Assembly: GCF_038022665.1 (NCBI RefSeq)
Contig: NZ_CP150629.1
Span: forward strand, 2,214,480 to 2,278,479
Reading direction: 5' to 3'
Length of the DNA stretch: 64,000 nucleotides
Source of the DNA: Methanolobus sp. WCC4
GTDB lineage: Archaea; Halobacteriota; Methanosarcinia; Methanosarcinales; Methanosarcinaceae
The notes under the pieces are model-generated. The model had not been told where the DNA came from, made no database searches, and saw only the letters and a list, made by a program, of their open reading frames with translations. Every line of letters starts with the position of its first letter. Position 1 is the first letter of the stretch. The position numbers were made by a program, and so were the translations under genes. Shown piece after piece: positions 32,628-52,073 of the stretch.

Positions 32628-32703
32628 GGACAGTGACAAAATGAATGTTAAGTGTGTTATGTGGGAAAGCTCTCAAGCATCGTAATGTAAGCGGAGTGTG
32701 AAT

Positions 32704-33288
32704 ATGAAAGTAAGTATCATAGGCGGACCAACTGGCAGTGGTAAAACAACATTGATACTTGACCTTGCAAAATACCTCAATTCTAATGGGGAGAAGATAG
32801 GTATTATAGTGCAGGAGACAGGAGAAGTGGACTATGATGAAAGGACACTCTCTGAACTGGGTATCAGTACAAAAGAGGTCAACAGTGTATGTATACCATG
32901 CTCTCTTGACACCGACATCAGAAGTAACCTGTTGATGCTGCAGGAAGAATCCGGGCCTGACACGGTCTTTATTGAGACCGAAGAGACCGTGCTTCCTCAC
33001 AAACTGAAAGCAGATATCGAAAGAATGGCACTTCATGATACGGAGTTACTTCCTGCCTTAGTAGTTGTCAATTCACCGGATTCTGAGACACGATCGGACC
33101 AGCTTACAGAATATGCCAGAAAGCAGCTTCAAGGTGCTGAAATTGTCTGTATCGATATGATAGAGGCGGATACGGCCAAGCATATAGCAGATGTCAGGAG
33201 TATGGTCCTGGAACTCAATCCGGCCGTAAAGCTACTTGAGTGCCCCAGGTCCAGAGATGAAACTTTCCTGAAAATGCTTCTCGAATAG
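32704..33288 (+). CDS. Small P-loop GTPase-like protein (CobW/HypB/UreG type)
   Basis: This 194-residue protein has a P-loop GGPTGSGKTT at residues 7-16 and a second motif region IIVQETGEVDYDE (about 34-46). There is a Cys in the position CIPCSL, resembling the C-x-x-C of metal-inserting GTPases such as HypB, UreG and CobW. A clear NKxD specificity motif is not seen; VVVNSPDSE occupies that area, so GTP preference is uncertain. The role may be metal or cofactor insertion. GGAG before the ATG at 32704 supports that start over the in-frame GTG. Confidence 0.72.
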   Translation: MKVSIIGGPTGSGKTTLILDLAKYLNSNGEKIGIIVQETGEVDYDERTLSELGISTKEVNSVCIPCSLDTDIRSNLLMLQEESGPDTVFIETEETVLPHKLKADIERMALHDTELLPALVVVNSPDSETRSDQLTEYARKQLQGAEIVCIDMIEADTAKHIADVRSMVLELNPAVKLLECPRSRDETFLKMLLE

Positions 33289-37016: not shown

Positions 37017-37101
37017 AACGACAATACCTCACAGATCAAAAACATCCATTTAATTTAATAAACGAATCAAAAAACAGAAAAACAAAAAAAGGGTGATAAA
37101 T

Positions 37102-37716
37102 GTGCTGAAAATTACTCCACACCTTGGAATTCTCGTAGTTATAGTCTCGATCGCAGGACTCTGGTTCCCGCTGCTGGGATATTTCCTGCTACTTGTATTC
37201 GCAACGCTTATGGTCACAAGTTATTTCAGAGGAAGATGGTTCTGTGGTAACCTCTGCCCCAGAGGAAGTTTCAATGACTTCTGGGTCGGGAAGATAAGCC
37301 GCAATAGAAAGATACCCAACATCCTCAGAAGCTACTGGGTCAGGATACCTATTTTCATGCTTATGATGGGATTCATGGGTTACAGACTCCTCAGCACCCA
37401 GGGACTCATCAACCAGATCGGTATGGTCTTTGTCATCATGTGCCTTGTTACAACAACCATCGCACTGGTCACAGGAGCAGGCATCAGTCCACGTACATGG
37501 TGTACCTTCTGTCCAATGGGAACCGTCCAGAACCTCATCGGTGGAAGCAAGTACCAGCTCAAGACAGATGAATCAAAGTGTATCAACTGTAACAAGTGCG
37601 AGAAGGTCTGCCCAATGCAGCTCGATGTCCACACCAACAACGATAAGCCAGACTGTATCAAGTGCGGAAGATGCATCACAGCATGTCCAACAAAGGCACT
37701 GGCATTCAAAGCCTGA
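37102..37716 (+). CDS. NapH-like membrane protein with two 4Fe-4S clusters
   Basis: This 204-residue membrane protein has about four transmembrane segments (residues 8-25, 28-42, 76-92 and 100-122). Two CxxxCP-type motifs flank the helices, FCGNLCPRG and WCTFCPMG, as in NapH/CcoG/RdxA proteins. The C-terminal ferredoxin domain has CINCNKCEKVCP and CIKCGRCITACP, which bind two 4Fe-4S clusters. It probably carries electrons between a membrane donor and a cytoplasmic partner. GGTGAT before the GTG at 37102 favours that start over a GTG at 37093. Confidence 0.87.
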   Translation: MLKITPHLGILVVIVSIAGLWFPLLGYFLLLVFATLMVTSYFRGRWFCGNLCPRGSFNDFWVGKISRNRKIPNILRSYWVRIPIFMLMMGFMGYRLLSTQGLINQIGMVFVIMCLVTTTIALVTGAGISPRTWCTFCPMGTVQNLIGGSKYQLKTDESKCINCNKCEKVCPMQLDVHTNNDKPDCIKCGRCITACPTKALAFKA

Positions 37717-39540: not shown

Positions 39541-39855
39541 TTACAGGAACTCGATACTGACGCTTCCTGTATCTTTTGCAAGGGTACCCGACATGAAATC
39601 CGATTCGATGCAACAGACGTGCATCACTGCACAGGGCACAAGACATGTGGCGGTGCACCTCGCATCTTTGGCCTTTTGCATTACAAGATTATCCTTTATG
39701 TCAAAGAGATCCATCATATCTACTTCCAGATGAGACATCTTTTTGATCTTCTCACATGGGGTATCAATGTCAACAATTATCTTTTGACCCTCCTTTCTTC
39801 CCCTGACGATATGAGTGAAACCGCAGATCCCTGAATTGACCTTTACTTCTGTCAT
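39541..39855 (-). CDS. Small Cys-rich protein ending the methyltransferase operon
   Basis: This 104-residue protein has seven Cys residues: Cys11, Cys34, Cys67, Cys71, Cys75, Cys81 and Cys82. The cluster CTATCLVPCAVMHVCC suggests metal, iron-sulfur or corrinoid-thiol chemistry. It resembles short methanogen proteins found near corrinoid methyltransferases (a DUF6951-type call, recalled and not checked). It starts 18 bases after the activator gene, with a strong GGAGGAGGAT ribosome site, so it probably belongs to the same operon. Function unknown. Confidence 0.68.
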   Translation of the reverse strand: MTEVKVNSGICGFTHIVRGRKEGQKIIVDIDTPCEKIKKMSHLEVDMMDLFDIKDNLVMQKAKDARCTATCLVPCAVMHVCCIESDFMSGTLAKDTGSVSIEFL

Positions 39856-39873
39856 TGATATCCTCCTCCTGAC

Positions 39874-41520
39874 TTATGCCGAAAGACCTGAAAGCAGGCT
39901 TTCGTCCATGATCTTTATTTCTTTGTAGTCGATCGCATGCACCGGACACACACTAACACATCTTTTGCATGCCGTCCCCAGACATTTCTGAGTATTGTAC
40001 TTTGCAATGAGACCATCATCCGCTTTTATGAATATTGCCTGCTCAGGACATTCCTTTTCACATTTATGGCACATTATGCATCCAACTGCAAGTTCTTCAA
40101 GAGTGACACCTATGTCCTCTATCACTTCTACCGGAGCATCACCGGTCTCACTGATATCTTGCCGTTCCCTTTTCTCAAGCATAGGATATTCGACGGGAAT
40201 CGGGAGTTCAGGCAATTTGGACATCTTTAATAATTTTCTATACATCTCCATTGACATCCCCTCTGTCCAGTATCCCAGTTCACAGGCATAGAGCTTCTTG
40301 AAGTTCTCACTGGTTGCCATCATAAGATGATCGGCCTTTATATTCCCTGCCAGTTCGATCAGAGTATCAAGTTTAACCTTTTCAAGAACAATATCCCTTG
40401 CAAGGGATAGGGAGGTGTTCCCGAATTGCACTGTTCTCTTTGTAAAATCAGGACATGAACCTATCTTCCTTGCCTTGACAGGATTTACATAGGTTCCGGA
40501 AGCACCGCTCATATACATTGTTTCAAGGTCATCATAGGAGATACCTGATTCAAGTACCAGCGTTAACTGAGCTGCCCTTATGGCACCAATGGCCTTACCA
40601 GCTTCTTTTATGTCTTCTTCCGTTATCTCGATACCATCACCCAGTTCGATCCTTCCATATTTTAGTTTAGGAGGACTTGTAATGAGTCCGGTATCGATCG
40701 CAAGGGACAATATGGAAATAAGACCGGTTCCCGTGATACCAACCGGTACTACTTCCGATCCTTCAAGTATCATTCCGCTTATCGGATCGATCAAGTGTCC
40801 TTTTACGGTTTCCATGTTCTCATCCAGCACATATATTCTCCAGAGATTATTTTCCAGATCAACATCTGTGATCGCTCCCGGAGCTGCAAGCATACCACAA
40901 CTTATACCCTGACCTTCTATAGCAGGTCCCGCTGCAGCGCTCCCGGTGATGATCCTGTTGCCCACCTTAATGGCCATCTCAGCGTTCGTTCCGTAATCCG
41001 TTACAAGAGTTGGCTCTTCCTGGTCAAGGAAATCCGTCTCGACCATCATGGCAAGCGCATCAGCACCAATCTCATGTTCAATAGCAGGAGGGACAATTAT
41101 CATACATTTATCAAGTTTCAGATCCTTGTGGAATATATCCATAGCCGGAAATACCCGGGCATTACGTTCTACGTCACCTATCCCCAATCGATCCCGCATG
41201 TTCCTTCCTACATAGGCCAGATCACGAATCTCCGAGTTCTGGAAAAGAGATAGCTGTATCGGGTTTCCACAAACAGCGATCATTGATATCTGCGATGGAC
41301 CCACATCAAATCCTTCGATCATCTTCTCCACAGTATCTATGATGATACCGTGTGCTATATCCTCTCCAATGGATATTGCAAAGTCAAGATGATCCGTCAC
41401 GTTCCCACCAGGCAATGGATGTTTCATTGTCATTGAAGTCTTTATAACTTCTTTTATTTCCAGGTCGATCAGTTGCGCCCTGAAGCCGCTGGTTCCCACA
41501 TCTAACGCTATTCCATACAT
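39874..41520 (-). CDS. RamA-type corrinoid protein reductive activase
   Basis: This 548-residue protein is of the type that uses ATP to reduce inactive Co(II) corrinoid proteins to active Co(I) in methylamine, methanol and methylsulfide methyltransfer. The ASKHA ATPase part starts YGIALDVGTSGFRAQLID and has a second motif TLVTDYGTNAEMAIKVG. The C-terminal ferredoxin domain holds two 4Fe-4S clusters: CIMCHKCEKECP and CLGTACKRCVSVCP. GGGGGA before the ATG at 41520 supports that start. It begins one base after the URO-D gene stop. The corrinoid partner is probably the fused protein upstream. Confidence 0.92.
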   Translation of the reverse strand: MYGIALDVGTSGFRAQLIDLEIKEVIKTSMTMKHPLPGGNVTDHLDFAISIGEDIAHGIIIDTVEKMIEGFDVGPSQISMIAVCGNPIQLSLFQNSEIRDLAYVGRNMRDRLGIGDVERNARVFPAMDIFHKDLKLDKCMIIVPPAIEHEIGADALAMMVETDFLDQEEPTLVTDYGTNAEMAIKVGNRIITGSAAAGPAIEGQGISCGMLAAPGAITDVDLENNLWRIYVLDENMETVKGHLIDPISGMILEGSEVVPVGITGTGLISILSLAIDTGLITSPPKLKYGRIELGDGIEITEEDIKEAGKAIGAIRAAQLTLVLESGISYDDLETMYMSGASGTYVNPVKARKIGSCPDFTKRTVQFGNTSLSLARDIVLEKVKLDTLIELAGNIKADHLMMATSENFKKLYACELGYWTEGMSMEMYRKLLKMSKLPELPIPVEYPMLEKRERQDISETGDAPVEVIEDIGVTLEELAVGCIMCHKCEKECPEQAIFIKADDGLIAKYNTQKCLGTACKRCVSVCPVHAIDYKEIKIMDESLLSGLSA

Positions 41521-41521
41521 C

Positions 41522-42646
41522 TTAATTCCCCCTGTCAAAATAAGATCTCATTGATTCCCACAGAAGTGCCATCTCTTCCTGAGGTGTATCCAGTGGTATC
41601 TCACATCCAGTGGATAGGATGAATCCCCTTTCAGGAGCAGCATCCATACAACGATTCACTTCGGCAGCTATCCTGTCAAACCTTCCTGTATTGAATGCAT
41701 AGGGATTGATATTTCCCATCAGGCATATACCTGAATCACTGAAGTCTTTGAGATCTCTGAAACAATATCTTTCACTGCAACCAATATGCCTATGATTATG
41801 GACCTGCAGACAGTCGATCCCGTACTTTTGCCCCAGTGATTTCACATCTCCAAAGAAGAAATTCAAAGCATCAGGTTCAAGAGCCAGTTCCAGTTCGTGG
41901 AATGCATGGTTCGCACAGTTATGGGATATTACGTATCCCCCTCTTTCCTGTATGTGTGAATACATCTTCTTAGAATAATCAAAGCCGAATTCCTTTGCCA
42001 TTTCCAGGCTGAAAAGATCCGAAGTGCTCCCTCCGTTCTCAATAAATATACCATCTGCTCCTGCATCAAGCATCATGTCCGCAAAGGTGATGCAACTGTC
42101 AGTAAGAACATCAAGAAGTTCATGGAAATTATCGGGATCTTTCATCATTTCCATGAACATCCTGCTCCCATCCATTAACTGTGAAGCAAGCATGAAAGGA
42201 GTAAGTAGTGCACCGCTAATGAAAACCTCATCTCCAAGCTCTTTTTTTAACAAAGATATGGACTCTGCAATGGTCTTTGTCCTTTCTGAGCGTTCTATGG
42301 TACCCGGATCAATGTTCTCATATTCTTTTGCAGAATTTAGAGGAAAGGTGGCTATTGAAGGATAAGAATGTCTCTTGATGTTTATTTTTGCCCCAAAAGC
42401 CTCCGCTTCCACAAGCAAACATCCCCATGGGGACATTACATTGTCATGGTGATACATTTCCCTTGCTAATATCTGTGCTCTGGCAATGCCTTTTGCAGAA
42501 TAGTAAACATCCTCCATGTTTGTATTCATCTTCTCGAGCACCGCATCACCAGCTCCGAACCACAGATACCCCAGTGGCATCCTGTCCACTTCTTTCATTT
42601 CAAGAGCGTTGATAAAGCGCTCCCTGGAGGTCATCTCATCAACCAT
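41522..42646 (-). CDS. UroD-type methylcobamide:CoM methyltransferase-like protein
   Basis: This 374-residue protein has the uroporphyrinogen decarboxylase fold used by MtaA, MtbA and MtsA to move methyl groups between corrinoid and coenzyme M. The probable zinc ligands are in SHNCANHAF and in the C-terminal STGCEIPLDTP motif. The N-terminus TSRERFINALEMKEVDRMP is typical. It has no corrinoid domain of its own, so it should act on a separate corrinoid protein, perhaps the fused one encoded upstream. The exact methyl acceptor is not proven. It starts 12 bases after the chaperonin gene. Confidence 0.85.
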   Translation of the reverse strand: MVDEMTSRERFINALEMKEVDRMPLGYLWFGAGDAVLEKMNTNMEDVYYSAKGIARAQILAREMYHHDNVMSPWGCLLVEAEAFGAKINIKRHSYPSIATFPLNSAKEYENIDPGTIERSERTKTIAESISLLKKELGDEVFISGALLTPFMLASQLMDGSRMFMEMMKDPDNFHELLDVLTDSCITFADMMLDAGADGIFIENGGSTSDLFSLEMAKEFGFDYSKKMYSHIQERGGYVISHNCANHAFHELELALEPDALNFFFGDVKSLGQKYGIDCLQVHNHRHIGCSERYCFRDLKDFSDSGICLMGNINPYAFNTGRFDRIAAEVNRCMDAAPERGFILSTGCEIPLDTPQEEMALLWESMRSYFDRGN

Positions 42647-42658
42647 TTTAACTCCCCC

Positions 42659-44317
42659 TCAGGACTTTTTCAATACGATCTTGTCAATTCTCAATATATT
42701 GCTTACAGCCTCGGTAGCTGCGATAACAGCCATTTGTTTAATGCTGAAAGAATCATATACAGGAGGGTTGTTAGGAACGACATTTCGGCTTTGATCGATC
42801 CTGCAGTCAATTCCCTTGTTATAGGAATTGAGCATTCTCGTTACCGCATCTACCTCATTGAGACCCACGTTTCGTGCAAGTGTTCTAGGGATCTCTTCGA
42901 GGGCGTTCGCATATTCAATAACTGCGAGTTGCTCTTTCCCTTCGATGGTGGAAGAATACTGCCTGAGCATCTGTGAGAGCACAAATTCAACATCCCCTCC
43001 TCCTCTTACGGCAAGAGGATTCTTCAGTATGAATGCAGCATTATTGACTGCATCATCCACTGCCTCCTCGATCTTTTCAAGACCATACCTGAAAGGCTCC
43101 CATATCATGATAGTGGATATCAGCTGATCACTGACAGAGAGGAAAAGGAAATGCTCATCGTTTCTTTTTACGACCTCTGCCTCATCGGCAAAGCCCAGAT
43201 GATCAAGCATTATATCGTCCCTGATGGAAAGAATGCTTGCACCTGTTGCCTTTGAGACCATCTCCATATCCCTCAGTTTTAGTTTCTGGAAAAGCAGTAC
43301 ACCATGTTTTGCAAGTGAGCCTTCCACAGATTCGTCCACCTCTCCTTCACAAAATACAAGCTTAGCCCCGGAATCAATTATCTTCTGTGACATGACTTTC
43401 AGATTTCTTTCCTGTCCCTGAAAGATAAGCCTTGGATCGGCGAGATCGTCTATCCGTAGATTGCGCTGTGAATTTATGATCTTGCTTTCAAATTTCACAT
43501 TGCCGTTGATCATAAGTACGCTTGTATTTTCCAGATGCCAAGGCATGTCTGATCTTGCAGGTCTTTCATCAAGGACCATTCCGGAAATAGATTCTATAGA
43601 GGGAGAACCTACCTTTTTTATGACTTTGACATAGTCGTTGAGATCTATGTGAGCATCACCATGGATATCCCGGATCTTAGAAAGTGTCTCAAGAACGATA
43701 TCTGCTATTATCCTTGCCTGATGTGGCTCAATACCTTTACCCAGAGAGGCATTCTCTATTACAGAATGCAGGTCATTTTCAGAACTTATCCGAATGCTCT
43801 CATAGTTCAGGATATCGTAAGCCTTGTTCAGAGCAAGCTGGTATCCTTTTATGATGGTTGTAGGATGCAGGCCGATATCCATGAGCTTAGCAGCATTCTC
43901 GATAAGAGAAGCAGCTATTATCACTGCGGTCTTTGTACCGTCACCACACACCCTGTCCATGGACATGGCAAGCTTTTTGAGAGAAGTGATCACCGGATGC
44001 AGCACATCTATCTGTTCAATTATCGTCTTCCCGTCACTTGTAAGATAAACGTCGTCTGTGGGACTGATTATTATCTTGCTGGATCCCCGTGGTCCAAAAG
44101 ATGAAACAAGGAGGTCCTTGATATCCCTGGAAGCCTGTAGCATCTCATGGACGAGACCATCTTCTTCAACATCCTCCCTGACCCCGATACGACCACGCAC
44201 ACTCTGACGCAGGGCATCCATATCATCCAGTGCGTTCATAGTGTTCATGTTCCCTGCGTTTATAGTGCTCATATTTCCCGCATTCATATAACCCATATTT
44301 TCCAGTGAAGTGCTCAT
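42659..44317 (-). CDS. Divergent group II chaperonin (thermosome-like)
   Basis: This 552-residue thermosome/CCT-family protein is strongly divergent. Recognisable motifs are FGPRGSSKII (for GPKGMDKML), LTSDGKTII, CGDGTKTAV (ATPase), the apical-lid region KFESKI...DLADPRLIFQGQERNLKVM, EEAVDDA (in place of ERALEDA), RGGGDVEF and the end SATEA-like ATEAVSNILRIDKIVL. The RGGTEHVIDE block is replaced by WEPFRYGLEK. An unusual N-terminal run of repeated NAGNM units (residues 13-28) precedes the domain. It overlaps the HyuA-like gene by four bases. It is clearly not the housekeeping thermosome, and its place among methyltransferase genes suggests it helps fold or assemble these proteins. Confidence 0.85.
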   Translation of the reverse strand: MSTSLENMGYMNAGNMSTINAGNMNTMNALDDMDALRQSVRGRIGVREDVEEDGLVHEMLQASRDIKDLLVSSFGPRGSSKIIISPTDDVYLTSDGKTIIEQIDVLHPVITSLKKLAMSMDRVCGDGTKTAVIIAASLIENAAKLMDIGLHPTTIIKGYQLALNKAYDILNYESIRISSENDLHSVIENASLGKGIEPHQARIIADIVLETLSKIRDIHGDAHIDLNDYVKVIKKVGSPSIESISGMVLDERPARSDMPWHLENTSVLMINGNVKFESKIINSQRNLRIDDLADPRLIFQGQERNLKVMSQKIIDSGAKLVFCEGEVDESVEGSLAKHGVLLFQKLKLRDMEMVSKATGASILSIRDDIMLDHLGFADEAEVVKRNDEHFLFLSVSDQLISTIMIWEPFRYGLEKIEEAVDDAVNNAAFILKNPLAVRGGGDVEFVLSQMLRQYSSTIEGKEQLAVIEYANALEEIPRTLARNVGLNEVDAVTRMLNSYNKGIDCRIDQSRNVVPNNPPVYDSFSIKQMAVIAATEAVSNILRIDKIVLKKS

Positions 44318-46248
44318 ATTACCCTCCTGGGGGAACCAACAGCGACCCCTACTATCTTTGTCTCAAGGGGTATCGTTCCAATACTCCCTACATTATTGCA
44401 TTCAAGATCGAACCTTACATTGTCCATACTCAGACCGTAACCTGACATATACTCTGAAACTGTGTTATTGACAAGGGAATTTGCCGTGTCAAGAGCCTCC
44501 TGATAATCATCGAACATCTGTCTTCCTTTTTCAGAGAAGACCAGATACTGTGAGCTGCCAGGGCTGGCAGGTCTTATCAGTATTTCTTCCCTGTACACCA
44601 CATTACCCACAAGGGCACCTACAGCGTTACCAACTTCATGGTACTGCGGAAGCCTTATGTCCGCATCGATGAGATATTTCATATCTTTCAGATATGGGGC
44701 TACAGGAGCGCCCACCATTACAACGGGCGTCTTTATCGTGAATTTCATTAGTTCTGTGCCGTCCAGTATTTTCGCCAGATCGGTTTTCTTCACTTTATCT
44801 GCACAGTGTGAAATGAGATTGAGTACGATCTCCCTTGCCACATCTTCCTTGAGTGTGGTGCAAAGATCAAAGGGTCCCATAGAAGTATATTCTGAAAGAA
44901 GAGCTGCTCCAAGCATCGATGCACTGGAATCCCATCTTGTATAGTCACCTATCACATGCAGGACATCGGTCGGGGTGAAGCCTACCTGTCTCACATATCT
45001 CTTCTGTATGAGGTCTCTCAGGATACCTTCGAACATCAGAGCATGTTTATTTGTCTTTGCGGCAATATCCGCTATAGAAGATGGTTCGTCTGTGATCGCA
45101 TCGAATATTTCCATCTCTTCTACCTCCAGTTCAGAGGCATGCAGTGAATGGGACTTTGTTCCATTGGACATGAAGAATGTTGTTGGCTGGATGATGTCAC
45201 TCATTATTCGCTTTGAGATCCTTTCAGCATTCTGCAATTTGCTTATTATGGAAGGGAATTCGGCAGCGCAAAGACATAGTGGTATCACCCTGTTAGGTCC
45301 CATACGCGCTTTTTCCTTCATCCATACATGACTGTCCCCTCCAATGGCAGAAGTGTTCATCTTGATAGCCTTGACCATTGTATGCCAGTCACCTACCACA
45401 GCACCTGAACTGCTGATAGCAGGCAGCCCGTCGAGGATCATAGAGATATCCGTACTCGTACCTCCCACATCCACGGTCAGGCATTCCTTAAGTCCTGTCA
45501 GATGTGCAGCTCCCAGCAGACTTGCGGCGGGTCCGGAAAAAATGGATTCCACTGGTTTTTTGAGTGCCTCTTCTATCCTGACAAGCGATCCATCACATCT
45601 CATCATCATCAGGACCGAATTGATGTTCTTATCCTGCATCACAGACCTCACAGACCTTATGAACTGGTCTATTACCGGGATCAACTGGGCATTAAGAAGT
45701 GCGGTCAAAGCCCTTTCGTAAGCTCCGAGCTCCATGGAAAGCTCATGTCCGCAAACAACGGGATGATCTGTCAGGTCCTGTATTATCTCCTTGATAATGA
45801 GTTCGTGCTCCGGGTTGCGTACTCCAAAATATGATGATATAGCAAATGAGGAGACCTTATGCTGGTTCATTGTAACAAATTCTTTTACCTTCTTCAGGTC
45901 ACCCAGAGGTTCCACTTCATTTCCATCGGCATCATGCCCGCCTTCTATGGAAAGAATATGATCAGTGGGAATCTTTCGGGATATATTGTAACCGACGAGT
46001 ATGAGACCTGCAGGATATCCCTTACCCTCCAGCGTGGTGTTAGTAGCAAGTGTGGTGGATACTGAAGTGAATCTTACATTAGCAAGATGTTCGGCCTTAA
46101 GGCCGTCAATTGAACTGACAATGCCCCTTATCAGATCAGGATATGTCGTAAGCGATTTGTTTGAATCTATAATAGATCCATCTTCAAGATCCATGATCAC
46201 GGCATCAGTATATGTGCCGCCTGTATCTATTCCTAGCCCGAGATTCAT
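44314..46248 (-). CDS. Hydantoinase A-like (HyuA) ASKHA-fold ATPase
   Basis: This 644-residue protein belongs to the hydantoinase/oxoprolinase family, whose members couple ATP hydrolysis to opening of cyclic amides such as N-methylhydantoin. The phosphate-binding motifs GLGIDTGGTYTDAVIMD (residues 4-20) and LTVDVGGTSTDIS are intact. A winged-helix-like stretch (SSIADIAAKTNKHALMFEGILRDL) and the VVMVGAPVAPYL adenosine-region motif follow. No HyuB subunit gene is nearby, so a role as true hydantoinase is uncertain. Like RamA it is an ASKHA protein and might act on the corrinoid protein. GGTGAT before the ATG at 46248 sets the start. Confidence 0.85.
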   Translation of the reverse strand: MNLGLGIDTGGTYTDAVIMDLEDGSIIDSNKSLTTYPDLIRGIVSSIDGLKAEHLANVRFTSVSTTLATNTTLEGKGYPAGLILVGYNISRKIPTDHILSIEGGHDADGNEVEPLGDLKKVKEFVTMNQHKVSSFAISSYFGVRNPEHELIIKEIIQDLTDHPVVCGHELSMELGAYERALTALLNAQLIPVIDQFIRSVRSVMQDKNINSVLMMMRCDGSLVRIEEALKKPVESIFSGPAASLLGAAHLTGLKECLTVDVGGTSTDISMILDGLPAISSSGAVVGDWHTMVKAIKMNTSAIGGDSHVWMKEKARMGPNRVIPLCLCAAEFPSIISKLQNAERISKRIMSDIIQPTTFFMSNGTKSHSLHASELEVEEMEIFDAITDEPSSIADIAAKTNKHALMFEGILRDLIQKRYVRQVGFTPTDVLHVIGDYTRWDSSASMLGAALLSEYTSMGPFDLCTTLKEDVAREIVLNLISHCADKVKKTDLAKILDGTELMKFTIKTPVVMVGAPVAPYLKDMKYLIDADIRLPQYHEVGNAVGALVGNVVYREEILIRPASPGSSQYLVFSEKGRQMFDDYQEALDTANSLVNNTVSEYMSGYGLSMDNVRFDLECNNVGSIGTIPLETKIVGVAVGSPRRVI

Positions 46249-46294
46249 TATTATCACCTTTCATATGGAGCGTTTTTATTTGGAGGTGGGTGGT

Positions 46295-46318
46295 ACCCCC
46301 TTTTGTGGAGATGGGGGT
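46295..46318 (-). other. Hairpin upstream of the HyuA-like gene
   Basis: On the minus strand ACCCCC pairs with GGGGGT around a 12-base loop. It lies 47 bases before the HyuA ATG, in the 159 bases separating that gene from the fused methyltransferase. It could be a leader structure or part of an RNA-processing site. Confidence 0.45.
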
Positions 46319-46348
46319 TAGCACCTCGATGGATGTAGACCTCATAGA

Positions 46349-46391
46349 GTGATCTTTAGATCACATATGAGAATAAAAAAAGGAAAAGCAG
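46349..46391 (-). terminator. T-rich terminator after the fused methyltransferase gene
   Basis: On the minus strand the stop is followed by CCCCCTGCTTTTCCTTTTTTTATTCTC (46366-46396), a poly-T run as used for archaeal termination. A hairpin GTGATCT-AGATCAC at 46349-46364 lies just beyond. Termination here may be partial, leaving the downstream genes at lower expression. Confidence 0.55.
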
Positions 46392-46407
46392 GGGGAAGTT
46401 GTCCTGC

Positions 46408-48312
46408 TTATCCGAAATGCTGTTTCTGAAGATCCGGACCCAGTTCCTTAACTACGTCCACCATTGCCTTCACAGTGCTGAGAGGTCCTCCTGGTGGGAT
46501 CTCACAACCAGATGCCATGACAAACTTGGACTGCAGGCTGTTCTCCTTGAGTGTCGGAAGAACATCTCTAAGCAGCTGTTCAGTGTCTGTCCTGATCTTC
46601 TGCACACCTTCTGCAGAGCCATCCATGAAATCAACAGGGTTGATCTCACCCATGAGGCAGCATTCATGACCATACTTTGGAATAAGGTCTGCCATTCCCT
46701 GAGAGCCCTTGCTCCTGAGTTTTGGATAGTATGCGTAGCTGTACAGCTTTGTTCCGAACTTTGTGATCTGTGTATCAAAGTGTACTGCATCTGCACAGTT
46801 GTGAATGATGTATGGCTGGTCGTACTGCTTGAAGATCGGCAGGTGCTGGTCGTATACGAACTTACCGTCAAATTTCCAGTAGTCATCTTCGTCCATGATC
46901 ACATTGTTGGACCAGAGGTTGTCGATACAAAGTGCATTACAGGCACCCTCTTCAAAGAAGAGCTCAGATACCTGACAGATGTAGTCAGTACATTTCTGGA
47001 CCGCTTCAAGCACAACATCAGGATGTGTCTTCATGTCCATCAGGACACGGTCTGCACCCATAAGCTGTGTAAGGGTAAGAAGTGGTCCTTCATGGAATCC
47101 GACAAATGGTGTATCCAGTTCCTTGTTAAGTTTCTCAGTAGCGGCCTTGGAAGCCATTATAAGCTCATAGGCGCGGGTTCCTTCCTTGACCTCAGGGACC
47201 TCGATCTGTTCATATGCCTCAAGGTGTCCTTCTGATGATGGTGTGTCATCTTCAGGGTACTTGATCTTACATCCGAAGTCAGATGATGTTGCTGAAAGGT
47301 CTATGAGACCGACGAACATGTCCGTATCCAGATACTTCGATCCAAGGTAAGCACTCTCGACGAACGCATTGATGTCAGTAGCATACTGTTTGTAGTTAAC
47401 ATCAGCGAATTTCCTCAATACACCACATGCCAGAGGATATACAGGCAATCTGTCAACCTTTTTGTCACCCATTGCTGCCAGTGTCCTGTCCATATGGGTC
47501 ATTTCTTCTTTTGTCTTGACAGCTACACTCTCAAAGTCCGCAATGATCTGTTTTGCAGTTTCCAGACCGATGTCTGTCTTTCCTTTAACTGTCTTCTTGG
47601 ACAGGATCTCTCTATACTTGACCTTAGCAAGTGAGATCTTCTCCTCGCTCCATCTCTGCTCAGCAGGAGCGAGGTTGCTTACAGCTTCCTTTGCCCATTC
47701 TGTAGCCGCCATGGAATCAGGGTGTGTGGAGTCTGCAGTGATCTGTTCTGCAAATTCAGGGGAAACAGGTGCTCCTCCTACCATTACAATGAGAGAATCC
47801 CTGAGACCTTCCTCCTGCAGTATCTCGATCACTTTTTCCATGTTTGTCATGGTAGTGGTCATCAAGGCACTCATAGAGATTATGTCTGCTTTCTTCTCCT
47901 TTGCTACATCTACGAATTTCTGGACCGGCACATCGTGACCCAGATCGACCATGTCGAAGCCTGCTGCGGACATCATTGTCTTGACAAGGTTCTTTCCTAT
48001 GTCGTGTACATCTCCCTCGATGGTTCCTATAACACCTATAGAACGCTGTTCTCCTCCACCTACTTTCATATGTGGGGTCAGGATGTCCATACCTGCATAC
48101 ATGGCACCAGATGCGATGAGCAGATGTGGTACAAAGGCTTCTCCCTTTTCGTAATTGTCACTTACAATGGTCATTCCCTTTGCAAGTCCATCCACAATTG
48201 CCTCGTAAGGATCAACACCTTCATCTAAGGCTTGTTGTGCAAGTTCTTCTGCCAGGTCGTCGTCGCCTTCGACCACAGCTTCCGCTAATTGGTTTAAAAT
48301 TGCTGTACTCAT
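46408..48312 (-). CDS. Fused corrinoid protein-methyltransferase (MtsD/F/H-like)
   Basis: This 634-residue protein joins a corrinoid-binding half to a UroD-type methyltransferase half. Residues 1-85 are the helical cap, and 90-215 the B12 domain with motif GDVHDIG at 100-106 and axial ligand His103. Residues 270-634 are the methyltransferase domain with the zinc ligands in IIHNCADAVHF and SGCEIPPGGP. This fusion is known from methylsulfide methyltransferases (MtsD, MtsF and MtsH) of Methanosarcina. It should demethylate a small methylated compound, probably a methylated sulfur compound, and pass the methyl to coenzyme M. GGAGGT precedes the ATG. The substrate is not proven. Confidence 0.92.
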   Translation of the reverse strand: MSTAILNQLAEAVVEGDDDLAEELAQQALDEGVDPYEAIVDGLAKGMTIVSDNYEKGEAFVPHLLIASGAMYAGMDILTPHMKVGGGEQRSIGVIGTIEGDVHDIGKNLVKTMMSAAGFDMVDLGHDVPVQKFVDVAKEKKADIISMSALMTTTMTNMEKVIEILQEEGLRDSLIVMVGGAPVSPEFAEQITADSTHPDSMAATEWAKEAVSNLAPAEQRWSEEKISLAKVKYREILSKKTVKGKTDIGLETAKQIIADFESVAVKTKEEMTHMDRTLAAMGDKKVDRLPVYPLACGVLRKFADVNYKQYATDINAFVESAYLGSKYLDTDMFVGLIDLSATSSDFGCKIKYPEDDTPSSEGHLEAYEQIEVPEVKEGTRAYELIMASKAATEKLNKELDTPFVGFHEGPLLTLTQLMGADRVLMDMKTHPDVVLEAVQKCTDYICQVSELFFEEGACNALCIDNLWSNNVIMDEDDYWKFDGKFVYDQHLPIFKQYDQPYIIHNCADAVHFDTQITKFGTKLYSYAYYPKLRSKGSQGMADLIPKYGHECCLMGEINPVDFMDGSAEGVQKIRTDTEQLLRDVLPTLKENSLQSKFVMASGCEIPPGGPLSTVKAMVDVVKELGPDLQKQHFG

Positions 48313-48738
48313 AGTTTACCTCCAAGGTTTAGGTTTTTTGAACAGTGAGTCTCCAATCTTCACTGTTAACAAATAACACTATTTCACTTTTCGTATATAT
48401 CATAACCTCTGGTTATTTATTAACAGCATTAATATTATGAATTGCACCGCTGTTTGAAAGGAACCGTGATCCAATGAATGAACACAATCGAATTAACGCC
48501 GTTAATCGATGGAAAGAACTCAAATGAGATCAATGGCATTGATCTGATCAATGGCTCTTATCTTATGAATACAAGAACAGAACACATTCAGACAGGGTAT
48601 TCCGGATCAAAACAATTAAGATCAAAACCAATATGATTGAAAAACACAAGCAAATTATAAGCAAACTATCAGTGAAAATTTAAGCAACAAATACAGAATT
48701 ATAGCAGGGACCAATATGCTATATATGATATTCTGACC
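48313..48738. promoter_or_regulatory. Promoter and palindrome-rich region of the fused methyltransferase gene
   Basis: This 426-base region lies between the HTH regulator and the methyltransferase genes. On the minus strand a TATA box lies at about 48391-48400. It is flanked by the near-perfect inverted pair GTTAACAAATAAC (48365-48377) and GTTATTTATTAAC (48412-48424). A hairpin AACAGTGA/TCACTGTT (48341-48348 and 48360-48367) lies in the leader. Upstream lie two palindromes, ATTAACGCCGTTAAT (48492-48506) and GATCAATGGCATTGATC (48528-48544), with GATCAATGGC repeated at 48546-48555. They are good candidates for operator sites of the neighbouring regulator. Confidence 0.65.
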
Positions 48739-49524
48739 TCAGATACCAGGCACTTCTTCAGATATTTTTCTGAAGAACTTGTACATATCCTCTCCCCACA
48801 TCAATGCATTTGTTTCAAAACTCAGCATAGCATGATTGTGGAACATGCCTGTTTTGTAGAACAGGGTCAGTGAAAGGAATTTGTCTGTCACTACGCTGGA
48901 AGCAAAATCTATATCGCCTTTATAGACAAAAAGTTCGGTATTATTCATTCCGAGATAATCCTGCAGTTGCTCAAAATACTCCGTTTCAAATCTTTCAAAA
49001 ACAGGCTCCGTTATTATTAATGAGATCCGGACACCTTTCCTGGCAAGCTCGATGTACTTGTAGGGATAAGCCGGGCTGAATGAAGAAGAGATCTCCATGA
49101 TGTATTTTGACTGTATGAGATTGTCAGTGAACTTTTTCGGTAGTTCATACATACGATTAAGTTCCGGCTCAACGATCTCACATGAGCCCAGTTCTTCAAT
49201 TCTCTCAAGAAGATGTGCCGGGATACCTTGTACTTTATGGTTCTCCCAGTATTGTTTATTGTCTTCAAAGACCATTAAGGTGTTTAAAAGAGGGATCATT
49301 TTCTTTACAATCACCTCTCCAAAACCGGAGAGTTTGTAATAATCATTCTCATAAAGTATTATGCCCTGGTCGATGAGGATCTTGATCTGTGTCATCATGG
49401 CACTGGAAGTAACATTGAGTGTGGTCTTGATCTCATCGATGTTCATAGGCCGTTCTATTAGCAGGATGAGGAGGTCTTTTCTTTTGTCGGATAGAAAAAG
49501 AGTGCCTAAAAGAGCCAGTTTCAT
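48739..49524 (-). CDS. Msr-family HTH transcriptional regulator
   Basis: This 261-residue regulator has an N-terminal winged helix (about residues 9-75: DKRKDLLILLIERPMNIDEIKTTLNVTSSAMMTQIKILIDQGII) and a C-terminal sensor domain of the DUF1724 type (about 95-250, ending SFETNALMWGEDMYKFFRKI). Regulators of this type (Msr) activate specific methyltransferase genes in Methanosarcina. The start overlaps the stop of the sensor kinase gene by four bases, so sensor and regulator are coexpressed. The most likely target is the fused methyltransferase gene that follows. The signal is unknown. Confidence 0.9.
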   Translation of the reverse strand: MKLALLGTLFLSDKRKDLLILLIERPMNIDEIKTTLNVTSSAMMTQIKILIDQGIILYENDYYKLSGFGEVIVKKMIPLLNTLMVFEDNKQYWENHKVQGIPAHLLERIEELGSCEIVEPELNRMYELPKKFTDNLIQSKYIMEISSSFSPAYPYKYIELARKGVRISLIITEPVFERFETEYFEQLQDYLGMNNTELFVYKGDIDFASSVVTDKFLSLTLFYKTGMFHNHAMLSFETNALMWGEDMYKFFRKISEEVPGI

Positions 49525-52073
49525 TTTATCATCTCACGTTTTGACAAATTGGGAGAATCATCTTCCACAACATCTATTGGGAGCTTTATGTGGAATGTGG
49601 TTCCTTTACCCTTTTCACTTTCGATCCAAATATAGCCTTTATGTGCAAGGATTATGTCCTTACAGATATAGAGACCGGATTCAAGTCCCTGATACATTCG
49701 ACTCATTGAGTCCTCCATCTGGTAGAATTTCTGGAAGATATGTGGTATAAGGTCTTTCTGTATACCTGGTCCCGTATCACTTATTCTCAAGTGCAGATGA
49801 TCACTTTCTTCACTTGCGTCTATGTTTATCCTTCCACCTTCAGGAGTGAATTTTATAGCATTATCTATAAGAATTATCAATGTTTGGGTCAGTTTGTCCT
49901 TATCAGATATTATTGCCGGTAATCCCTCAGGTACATTAACCTCTAGATCAATTCCTTTCTCATCTATCAGCAATATCAGATTCATCAAAGCCTCGGATAT
50001 AAGTTTATCCACATGAGCCCGGGAAAAAGTATATACTATCTTTCCAGCCTGCTCCTGGCTCATATACAGAAGTGAGTTTACCAGACGCTTTAACCTTGCA
50101 GAGTTGATCAACACGGAATCGATAGCTTTTGCCTGTTGTTCATCAATGGACATGATCATCTCATCATCAAGGATACTGCACTCTGAGAGTTCAGGACTGT
50201 ATATATCTTCCAGCCTTTCTGTAATGAATTCTGTTTTCATTCTACTGATGGACCTTAGTTCCTCATTTGCCAGCTTCAGTTCATCGGAATATTGCTTCAA
50301 TGCATCCTCTATTTGTTTTCTTTGAATAAGGTTCCACATACCCTGCATCAGTAAGGTAAGCTGACGCAGATCGGATCCATCATAATCCTCTGATTTGTTG
50401 CCAACACCTGCAACTGCAACTATATGGTCACCATCGAAGATTGGGATGTTCATATGCCTTGTGAGTTTAACGTGGTCCTCAGGATATCCTTTTTTTGTTG
50501 GGCTGGGAAGAGAGTAATCATTTGTTATTATGGGTTTGCGTTGCCTTACTGCTTCACCCCACAACCCGGTGGTCTTGATAGGATACACAAAGCGTTTATC
50601 TTTGATACCACATTCTCTCATAGCGCTTTTTGACCAGGAATGCATAATAAGGGCTGTTTCATCAGCATTCATGAACGCAAGGTAACCAAGTGAACTTTCT
50701 GTGAGCCTTACAGCTTCTTCCCTTGCAAAGTCTGTAATTTCATTCAATGATGCACCGGCCATACTATTAAGTTTAACAAGTGCTTCCAGCCTTTCCCCTT
50801 CAAGATCGCGTATCTTTTCCGCTTTTTTGCGCTCACTGATGTCCCTGGCAACGGATAGGATGGTTTTTTTCCCATCATATATCATGAATCGTGCGCTGAC
50901 TTCCAGCGGTATCTTCCTGCCGTCCCTATGTATCGCCTCGGCCTCATATATCGCTCTTCCATCTGTTTCAATATCCCTCATTAACTTCGAAACACGGCGT
51001 ACATCTTTTGAGGGTACTATATCAGAAGGACACGTATTCAACATCTCAGACCTGCTATATCCCAATGCATCAACGACAGCCTGATTCACAGCAATTAATC
51101 TGCCAGTGAGGGAACTGATGTAGATCTGGTCATTTATATTATTGAGGACAACCTTGAGCTTTTGCTCTGATTCAATGGCATCATCCAATACCCTCTTGTT
51201 GTTTATCGCGATAGCCGCAAGATTGGCGTTCGCTTTAAGGATATCTATCTCTTCTTTTGTAGGATTATGTGGCTCAGGGAAGTACATTCCAAATGTCCCA
51301 AAGACCTCATTATTCGAACTTATTATAGGCTCACAACAACTAGCCCTCAGGCCCGCCTTAGACGCCAGTTCCTTTAGATCATCCCAGTAAGGATGCTCCA
51401 TTATGTCCTCTACAACAACTCTTTTCCCTGTATGAACAGCTGTTGAGCAGGAGCCAATGCCTTCGCCTATAGGTAGTCCTTCAATAGCTTTTTTGTAGAA
51501 ATGAGGAAGATGAGAAGAAATAGCATGAACCAGATGCTTCTTTTCCTTGTCCAGTAACATGACAAAACTTATTGCTTCCGGCACAATTCTTTCTGTCGAT
51601 CTCACCAGACGCATAAGAACATCATCCAGAGTTGCACCTGATGCCAGGGCTTCAAGAACCTGATTGCGGCAATCAATAATTGTTTCTGAAAGCTTTCGCT
51701 GGCTTATATCAAGAACGATTCCTTCATATAACCGGATATTCCCTTCCTCATCCCTTCGGACTATTGTCCTGTCATCAATGAACCTGACCTCACCTGATGC
51801 TGTCAGTATCCTGTACTCCTGGATGAAATTATCGACACCTGTTTCAGAGTATTCTGCAACTTCTCTGCGTACATTCTCAATGTCATCAGGATGGATGATA
51901 TCGTCATACTTTAATCTGCCCGATAGGAAATCTTCGGGCGAATATCCAAACTGTCTGATATTCTCTGATACAAATTCTACTGGCCACCCTTCTTCCGGCT
52001 TCCATATGAAAATAGTTACAGGGCTGTCATTGATTACTTTTACAATTTCCGAATTTATATCGAGTTGTGTCAT
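49521..52073 (-). CDS. PAS-GAF-PAS-GAF sensor kinase-like protein (MsmS/RdmS type)
   Basis: This 850-residue soluble sensor has PAS 1 (about 10-125), GAF 1 (about 130-290), PAS 2 (about 305-420), a second GAF of the GAF_2 type (about 425-585), and a degenerate kinase module (590-850). The second GAF has Cys488 in SAMRECGI and His540 in TRHMNIPIF. A Cys in this GAF of MsmS-type sensors holds haem; whether Cys488 is that residue is not known. The H-box HELRTP is absent (position occupied by LEDIYSPELSE) and the G2 box reads GLESGLYI rather than GxGLGL, so normal His phosphorylation is doubtful. The N and G1 boxes remain. Confidence 0.9.
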   Translation of the reverse strand: MTQLDINSEIVKVINDSPVTIFIWKPEEGWPVEFVSENIRQFGYSPEDFLSGRLKYDDIIHPDDIENVRREVAEYSETGVDNFIQEYRILTASGEVRFIDDRTIVRRDEEGNIRLYEGIVLDISQRKLSETIIDCRNQVLEALASGATLDDVLMRLVRSTERIVPEAISFVMLLDKEKKHLVHAISSHLPHFYKKAIEGLPIGEGIGSCSTAVHTGKRVVVEDIMEHPYWDDLKELASKAGLRASCCEPIISSNNEVFGTFGMYFPEPHNPTKEEIDILKANANLAAIAINNKRVLDDAIESEQKLKVVLNNINDQIYISSLTGRLIAVNQAVVDALGYSRSEMLNTCPSDIVPSKDVRRVSKLMRDIETDGRAIYEAEAIHRDGRKIPLEVSARFMIYDGKKTILSVARDISERKKAEKIRDLEGERLEALVKLNSMAGASLNEITDFAREEAVRLTESSLGYLAFMNADETALIMHSWSKSAMRECGIKDKRFVYPIKTTGLWGEAVRQRKPIITNDYSLPSPTKKGYPEDHVKLTRHMNIPIFDGDHIVAVAGVGNKSEDYDGSDLRQLTLLMQGMWNLIQRKQIEDALKQYSDELKLANEELRSISRMKTEFITERLEDIYSPELSECSILDDEMIMSIDEQQAKAIDSVLINSARLKRLVNSLLYMSQEQAGKIVYTFSRAHVDKLISEALMNLILLIDEKGIDLEVNVPEGLPAIISDKDKLTQTLIILIDNAIKFTPEGGRINIDASEESDHLHLRISDTGPGIQKDLIPHIFQKFYQMEDSMSRMYQGLESGLYICKDIILAHKGYIWIESEKGKGTTFHIKLPIDVVEDDSPNLSKREMIK

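Follow-up and report, generated by a model that had tools for sequence, protein, structure and literature searches.

Why should an archaeal methyl-transfer gene cluster carry a chaperonin of its own? The question is raised by a locus at positions 39541-52073 of a 64,000-nucleotide stretch of Methanolobus sp. WCC4 DNA (contig NZ_CP150629.1, positions 2,214,480 to 2,278,479; the whole stretch is called the window below), which comes from a host genome consisting of a single contig of 2.85 Mb. Here a fused corrinoid/methyltransferase gene stands beside genes for a HyuA-like ATPase and a divergent group II chaperonin. Because the fused Mts protein is the constant partner of this chaperonin, we propose that the chaperonin may be dedicated to the Mts system, where it would serve the folding, assembly or cofactor readiness of the fused corrinoid/methyltransferase protein (MtsD; MtsF in Methanosarcina). 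The proposal is given about an even chance of being correct.

The partnership is seen in gene neighbourhoods of up to 20 kb, which were mapped for nearly all members of the chaperonin's clade. The count covers 60 chaperonin open reading frames (ORFs) in 10 genera, broken copies included. For 58 of the 60, a fused corrinoid/URO-D gene is found on the same strand within 113-3078 bp, and the remaining two are located on contigs that start at the HyuA gene. The HyuA gene directly precedes the chaperonin gene in 40 of the 60, while 17 copies (genera g4, g5 and g13) directly follow the fused gene with no HyuA gene between. Since the fused gene is the direct neighbour wherever HyuA is missing next door, the fused protein is taken to be the constant partner; HyuA was considered for this part and rejected, being widespread without the chaperonin and missing beside the 17 copies. 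In descending order of the number of genomes, the genes near the chaperonin are the fused gene, HyuA, the Msr regulator, the kinase, URO-D, RamA, a CobW-type GTPase and DUF6951. A sequence-only reading of this DNA had proposed a gene cluster for methyl transfer that has a divergent group II chaperonin to itself, and this much is borne out across the 10 genera: far from occurring apart from methyltransferase genes in most relatives, the chaperonin gene is found next to one wherever the contig does not end first.

The HyuA gene (44314-46257) overlaps the chaperonin gene (42659-44317) by 4 bp, and the same overlap is repeated in 16 relatives. With the recurrence of the arrangement across 10 genera, this repetition puts it far beyond chance. 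The shared overlap and the 40 chaperonin ORFs directly after HyuA suggest translational coupling of the two genes, and actin-fold proteins are classic clients of CCT, the eukaryotic relative of group II chaperonins. The client might on these grounds be the actin-fold ATPases of the locus (HyuA-like and RamA) instead of MtsD. We consider this decidedly unlikely, as the HyuA family is present in 104 of the 112 Methanosarcinaceae genomes surveyed, more than half of them without a chaperonin of the Mts-linked clade, as 17 chaperonin copies adjoin the fused gene directly, and as RamA is likewise not always present.

Across the same 112 genomes, the chaperonin is present in 47, all of which have the fused gene, and in none of the 59 that lack it. 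The other six have a fused gene and no chaperonin. They were considered as counter-examples and rejected, because their contigs end beside the fused or HyuA gene (0 to ~1.2 kb beyond the last Mts gene, for every fused gene concerned), which leaves them uninformative. The genomes are related and the co-occurrence counts are therefore not independent; the pattern repeats inside the genera with both states (g1, g6, g7, g10, g11 and g13). Draft assemblies are seen to break where the chaperonin is expected (contig ends in G087, G092 and G096, loci L156-L162). Near-identical copies at two loci probably collapse and break contigs, so that draft genomes under-count the chaperonin. Broken chaperonin copies with internal stops were also observed at an mtsF-type locus in G083 (L130) and G080 (L131), each with another copy intact in the genome.

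Which Mts system does the chaperonin accompany? All eight ORFs of the locus are present on the minus strand, and Pfam and NCBIfam domain searches agree with the functions first guessed from the letters:

49521..52073, minus strand: RdmS/MsmS-like sensor kinase, 850 residues, with PAS, GAF and HATPase_c domains.
48739..49524, minus strand: Msr-type transcription regulator, 261 residues, with a FilR1_middle domain.
46408..48312, minus strand: mtsD, fused corrinoid protein (residues 1-210) and URO-D methyltransferase (270-624), 634 residues, assigned by B12-binding_2, B12-binding and URO-D domains, by tree and by identity to the M. acetivorans copy.
44314..46257, minus strand, likely ATG at 46248: HyuA-like ASKHA ATPase without a HyuB partner, 644-647 residues, with Hydant_A_N and Hydantoinase_A domains and a winged-helix-like insert at ~379-426.
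42659..44317, minus strand: divergent group II chaperonin, Mts-linked, 552 residues, with a Cpn60_TCP1 domain, a GDGTKT ATP site, the catalytic Asp kept and no GGM tail.
41522..42646, minus strand: URO-D family methyltransferase, 374 residues, MtaA/MtbA-like but below the cut-offs of these families, with the HxC...C zinc-type motif kept.
39874..41520, minus strand: RamA-type corrinoid reductive activase, 548 residues, matching TIGR04270 at 737.8 bits (cut-off 500), with two C-terminal 4Fe-4S motifs.
39541..39855, minus strand: DUF6951 Cys-rich protein, 104 residues, with invariant C11, H15, C34, C67, C71 and C81.

In the fused protein, N-terminal corrinoid domains are joined to a C-terminal URO-D methyltransferase according to the domain search, and a tree of 61 fused proteins places it inside the clade of M. 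acetivorans MtsD (locus L110 of genome G074), not of MtsF or MtsH. It shares 78% identity with the M. acetivorans copy at G074:C1:1019012-1020907. Genome G074 is taken as M. acetivorans C2A, and the gene order of its second locus (L111), which runs regulator, fused gene, chaperonin, CobW GTPase, MtaC and MtaB, fits mtsF-mtaCB2; the order msrC-mtsF-mtaCB2 has been described for M. acetivorans (PMC11619418). Judged by sequence, the window locus is the Methanolobus version of the mtsD locus, with a predicted role in methyl transfer from dimethyl sulfide or methanethiol. Its methyltransferase part is already known, Methanolobus mtsD genes at 78-81% identity having been published (PMC10762971). The cluster had been thought to lie outside the known Mts systems, a view that has to be given up: the fused protein is an MtsD orthologue, and the mtsD and mtsF loci of M. 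acetivorans both carry the same chaperonin.

Like the M. acetivorans mtsD (MA0859) and mtsF (MA4384) loci, the window locus combines an orthologous fused MtsD with an RdmS-like kinase, an Msr regulator, HyuA and a chaperonin of the same clade. Unlike them, it adds the UroD methyltransferase, RamA and DUF6951 within ~3 kb. The genes from HyuA to RamA are packed with gaps of 12 bp or less, whereas the Methanosarcina genes are spread out, with a CobW GTPase after the chaperonin. Some 6 kb away from the operon, the other strand encodes a small CobW-type G3E GTPase of 196 residues (32698-33288, plus strand), which resembles the kind found after the chaperonin in other Methanosarcinaceae.

The kinase encoded upstream of the mtsD-like gene in G074 shares 63% identity with the sensor of the window and matches RdmS (MA0863), an H-box-less kinase (PMC11784639). 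A HisKA domain was not found in the window sensor by domain search, as in the RdmS class, and Cys C488 in the last GAF domain of the sensor (49521-52073) is invariant in nine aligned mts-linked kinases. Both features are as expected of a putative redox sensor of the RdmS/MsmS class.

Within the locus, 12 bp separate the chaperonin and UroD genes and 1 bp separates the UroD stop (ending at 41522) from the RamA ATG (41520), and the sensor kinase and Msr regulator genes also overlap by 4 bp. The gaps are wider from the fused gene to the HyuA ATG at 46248 (~160 bp), from RamA to DUF6951 (18 bp) and from the regulator to the fused gene (426 bp), so that a single transcript for all eight genes is only putative. 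Near the operon, positions 37093-37716 (plus strand) encode a membrane protein with Fer4_5 and two 4Fe-4S motifs (NapH-like), beside a small MarR/DnaD_N-type regulator.

How far, then, has the chaperonin departed from an ordinary thermosome? A Cpn60_TCP1 domain covers nearly the whole protein (residues 66-551, E 4.5e-113). As in the thermosome and CCT, the apical protrusion region is kept, the GPxG and GGG motifs are invariant or nearly so in 57 clade sequences, and the catalytic Asp (D422) and the nucleotide-sensing Lys (K194) are invariant in all 57. Unlike them, the chaperonin has an N-terminal extension of ~40 residues and no GGM-rich C-tail, and falls below the curated NCBIfam thermosome cut-offs (TIGR02339, 326.5 vs 671.1; NF041082, 329.7 vs 450). 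Its ATP site reads GDGTKT: the phosphate loop is GDGTK in 57 of 57 clade sequences, as against GDGTT in the three ordinary thermosomes that the host genome encodes beside its one chaperonin of the Mts-linked clade. In the 112 genomes there is a clean split between members of this clade (~44-100% identity) and ordinary thermosomes (~30-32%). The named relatives found by a scan of named genome contigs are all from Methanolobus (four loci, 66-89% identity), and no member of the clade was found outside Methanosarcinaceae in a 393-genome sample of the phylum. The ratio of nonsynonymous to synonymous substitution (dN/dS) against close relatives is 0.09-0.11, and the chaperonin is thus under purifying selection. 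The Lys in the phosphate loop could alternatively belong to a cofactor-handling machine which, instead of general folding, holds or reopens one corrinoid methyltransferase for cobamide insertion or replacement, together with the HyuA-like ATPase, the CobW-type GTPase and RamA. We hold this to be unlikely.

A second line of evidence comes from genomes with two Mts loci. In Methanosarcina and genus g5, the mtsD-side and mtsF-side chaperonins found in one genome mostly share 96-97% identity (range ~88-99.6%, with the lowest values in g5 genomes that have a third copy), whereas their fused partners are only ~53-56% identical. Synonymous divergence (dS) between the chaperonin copies is 0.14-0.20 within a genome (0.003 in G007) vs 0.75-0.91 between species. 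In the chaperonin tree most copies cluster with others from their own genome, and a topology that unites the mtsF-side copies in one clade is rejected (approximately unbiased test, p 3e-71). The copies evolve in concert, and the same type of chaperonin is present at both loci although the enzymes there differ greatly. The homologous DNA tract usually begins within ~35 bp of the ATG and stops within ~200 bp of the stop codon; in G074 it extends over the CobW gene region. Gene conversion between the mtsD-side and mtsF-side copies is likely.

Homogenised copies would also fit a pool of interchangeable subunits, and with three ordinary thermosome genes in the host genome mixed rings are possible. 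The chaperonin might accordingly be an auxiliary thermosome subunit, induced by methyl sulfides as growth substrates. It would enter complexes with ordinary thermosome subunits and assist a broad range of proteins when sulfide or thiols cause stress, in which case its linkage to the fused gene would reflect shared regulation only. This appears rather unlikely for a protein that is so distant from ordinary subunits (~30% identity), with a changed ATP site and no GGM tail. Moreover, in ten genera no copy of the chaperonin was seen separated from the fused gene, a linkage that a general stress role does not predict.

Under the proposal of a chaperonin dedicated to MtsD and MtsF, the genes of the locus would take methyl groups from dimethyl sulfide or methanethiol, served by a redox sensor, a regulator and a corrinoid-maintenance set. 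The chaperonin would most likely enclose the 70-kDa two-domain MtsD in an ATP-driven cycle and fold or assemble it, and would possibly bring it into the state needed for corrinoid uptake. HyuA, RamA and, in many relatives, the CobW-type GTPase may act on the corrinoid protein during loading or reactivation. We count in support of this proposal that, of the contiguous gene clusters regulated together when HdrED is repressed, MA4384 (mtsF) to MA4394 is the longest (PMC11619418); judged by gene order, this interval contains the mtsF-side chaperonin (L111).

Several points weigh on the other side. A folding client and genes under common regulation cannot be told apart by linkage, and with its GDGTKT site the chaperonin might hydrolyse ATP weakly or in an altered way. 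Some fused copies have no adjacent chaperonin (the MtsH-type L132 and L137, as well as L167 and L170), each in a genome that has the chaperonin elsewhere; at L170 in G084 there is no run of N and the local absence is a true one. Repeated duplication could also explain the likeness of the copies within a genome, since for most pairs the homologous tract barely extends past the ORF. In the accessible literature we found neither a biochemical or genetic study of the chaperonin nor a paper that ties mtsD or mtsF to a chaperonin or thermosome; subscription papers may contain an earlier remark on the linkage.

M. acetivorans has five group II chaperonin genes, and its extra ones were reportedly described by Maeder in 2005 under the title 'Novel chaperonins in a prokaryote' (cited in PMC5220055). 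The two Mts-linked clade copies of G074, at the mtsD and mtsF loci, would account for the extra pair, the other three genes being ordinary thermosomes. The two clade copies are presumably those named Hsp60-4 and Hsp60-5. To our knowledge, no function or Mts link has been reported for them. The clade itself extends over 10 genera and is wider than M. acetivorans alone. A parallel in gene arrangement is offered by MmoG and MimG, which resemble group I chaperonins and are encoded in the operons of soluble di-iron monooxygenases. They too are private chaperonins in the operon of one metalloenzyme, and the strict gene linkage to one enzyme operon is also found here. In contrast to these bacterial group I proteins with a non-haem iron client, the window chaperonin is archaeal, belongs to group II and has a putative corrinoid client. 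A generalist role is what is usually ascribed to group II chaperonins. If the proposal is true, the clade would offer a natural case of such a chaperonin with a single client, in which client recognition could be studied, and the extra chaperonin genes of M. acetivorans, a methanogen amenable to genetics, would acquire a function. The route from dimethyl sulfide to methane would likewise gain a maturation step that has been missing, and the chaperonin gene may be required when MtsD or MtsF is expressed in a heterologous host.

What remains is the part played by HyuA. The ASKHA ATPase had been read as a private component of the operon. This is contradicted by the breadth of the family and by the host genome itself, which contains seven full-length HyuA-like genes and one OplAH-type fusion. 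At E <= 1e-60 the family is confined to Methanosarcinaceae in the 393-genome sample. For five of the seven host copies, a gene with a corrinoid domain is no more than 8 kb away (three of these five are clustered), where ~6% would be expected per independent site, as reckoned from 13 corrinoid sites. The window protein matches both Hydant_A_N and Hydantoinase_A, the latter over its first half only, and its ASKHA motifs are invariant. Its AlphaFold model (mean pLDDT 87.7) matches acetone carboxylase beta, N-methylhydantoinase, Apc and caprolactamase subunits along its length (template-modelling score 0.52-0.64), and matches the corrinoid activator RACo more weakly. From this fold and the invariant motifs, HyuA, possibly with the chaperonin, might be a catalytic ATP-dependent enzyme acting on an N-methyl lactam, hydantoin or ketone substrate. 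We judge this highly improbable: the enzymes matched act together with a partner subunit or domain, and no Hydantoinase_B was found in the host genome except inside the 1221-residue OplAH-type fusion at 693 kb, ~1.56 Mb away. For want of a HyuB partner, hydantoin or N-methyl-lactam hydrolysis by HyuA was rejected. The spread of the seven paralogs over varied sites, mostly close to corrinoid genes, points instead to a corrinoid accessory role, as does the 'HydA' of bacterial glycine-betaine methyltransferase loci (PMC9768040). Hydantoinase-annotated genes (MA4395-MA4396) also lie downstream of mtaCB2 in M. acetivorans (PMC11619418). The simplest reading is that HyuA is an accessory ATPase of corrinoid methyltransferase systems. 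Of the two roles first suggested for it, the one on the corrinoid side is plausible and the one on cyclic N-methyl compounds is unlikely.

Some HyuA-like genes are found in other settings. One paralog of the host genome (L115:8280-10328, at ~1.52 Mb) immediately follows mcrA and a gene for a peptide-modifying radical SAM enzyme; a link of this copy to Mmp10 was considered and rejected, as the neighbouring enzyme belongs to TIGR04083. In Methanosarcina and genus g7, HyuA-like genes repeatedly form a tandem pair that is not close to corrinoid genes (L133, L136, L142, L145 and L149), near a pyruvoyl-dependent arginine decarboxylase gene (L133) or a KsgA-like gene (L136).

The last gene of the locus encodes DUF6951, whose predicted fold, a moderate-confidence model, had no PDB match with E <= 0.001. 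In the alignment of the window protein (39541-39855) with its relatives, the invariant set of one His and five Cys residues resembles a putative metal or Fe-S site. DUF6951 also occurs away from mts loci (L139 and L148), and the copy at L139 adjoins genes for a bile-acid-type symporter and a universal stress protein.

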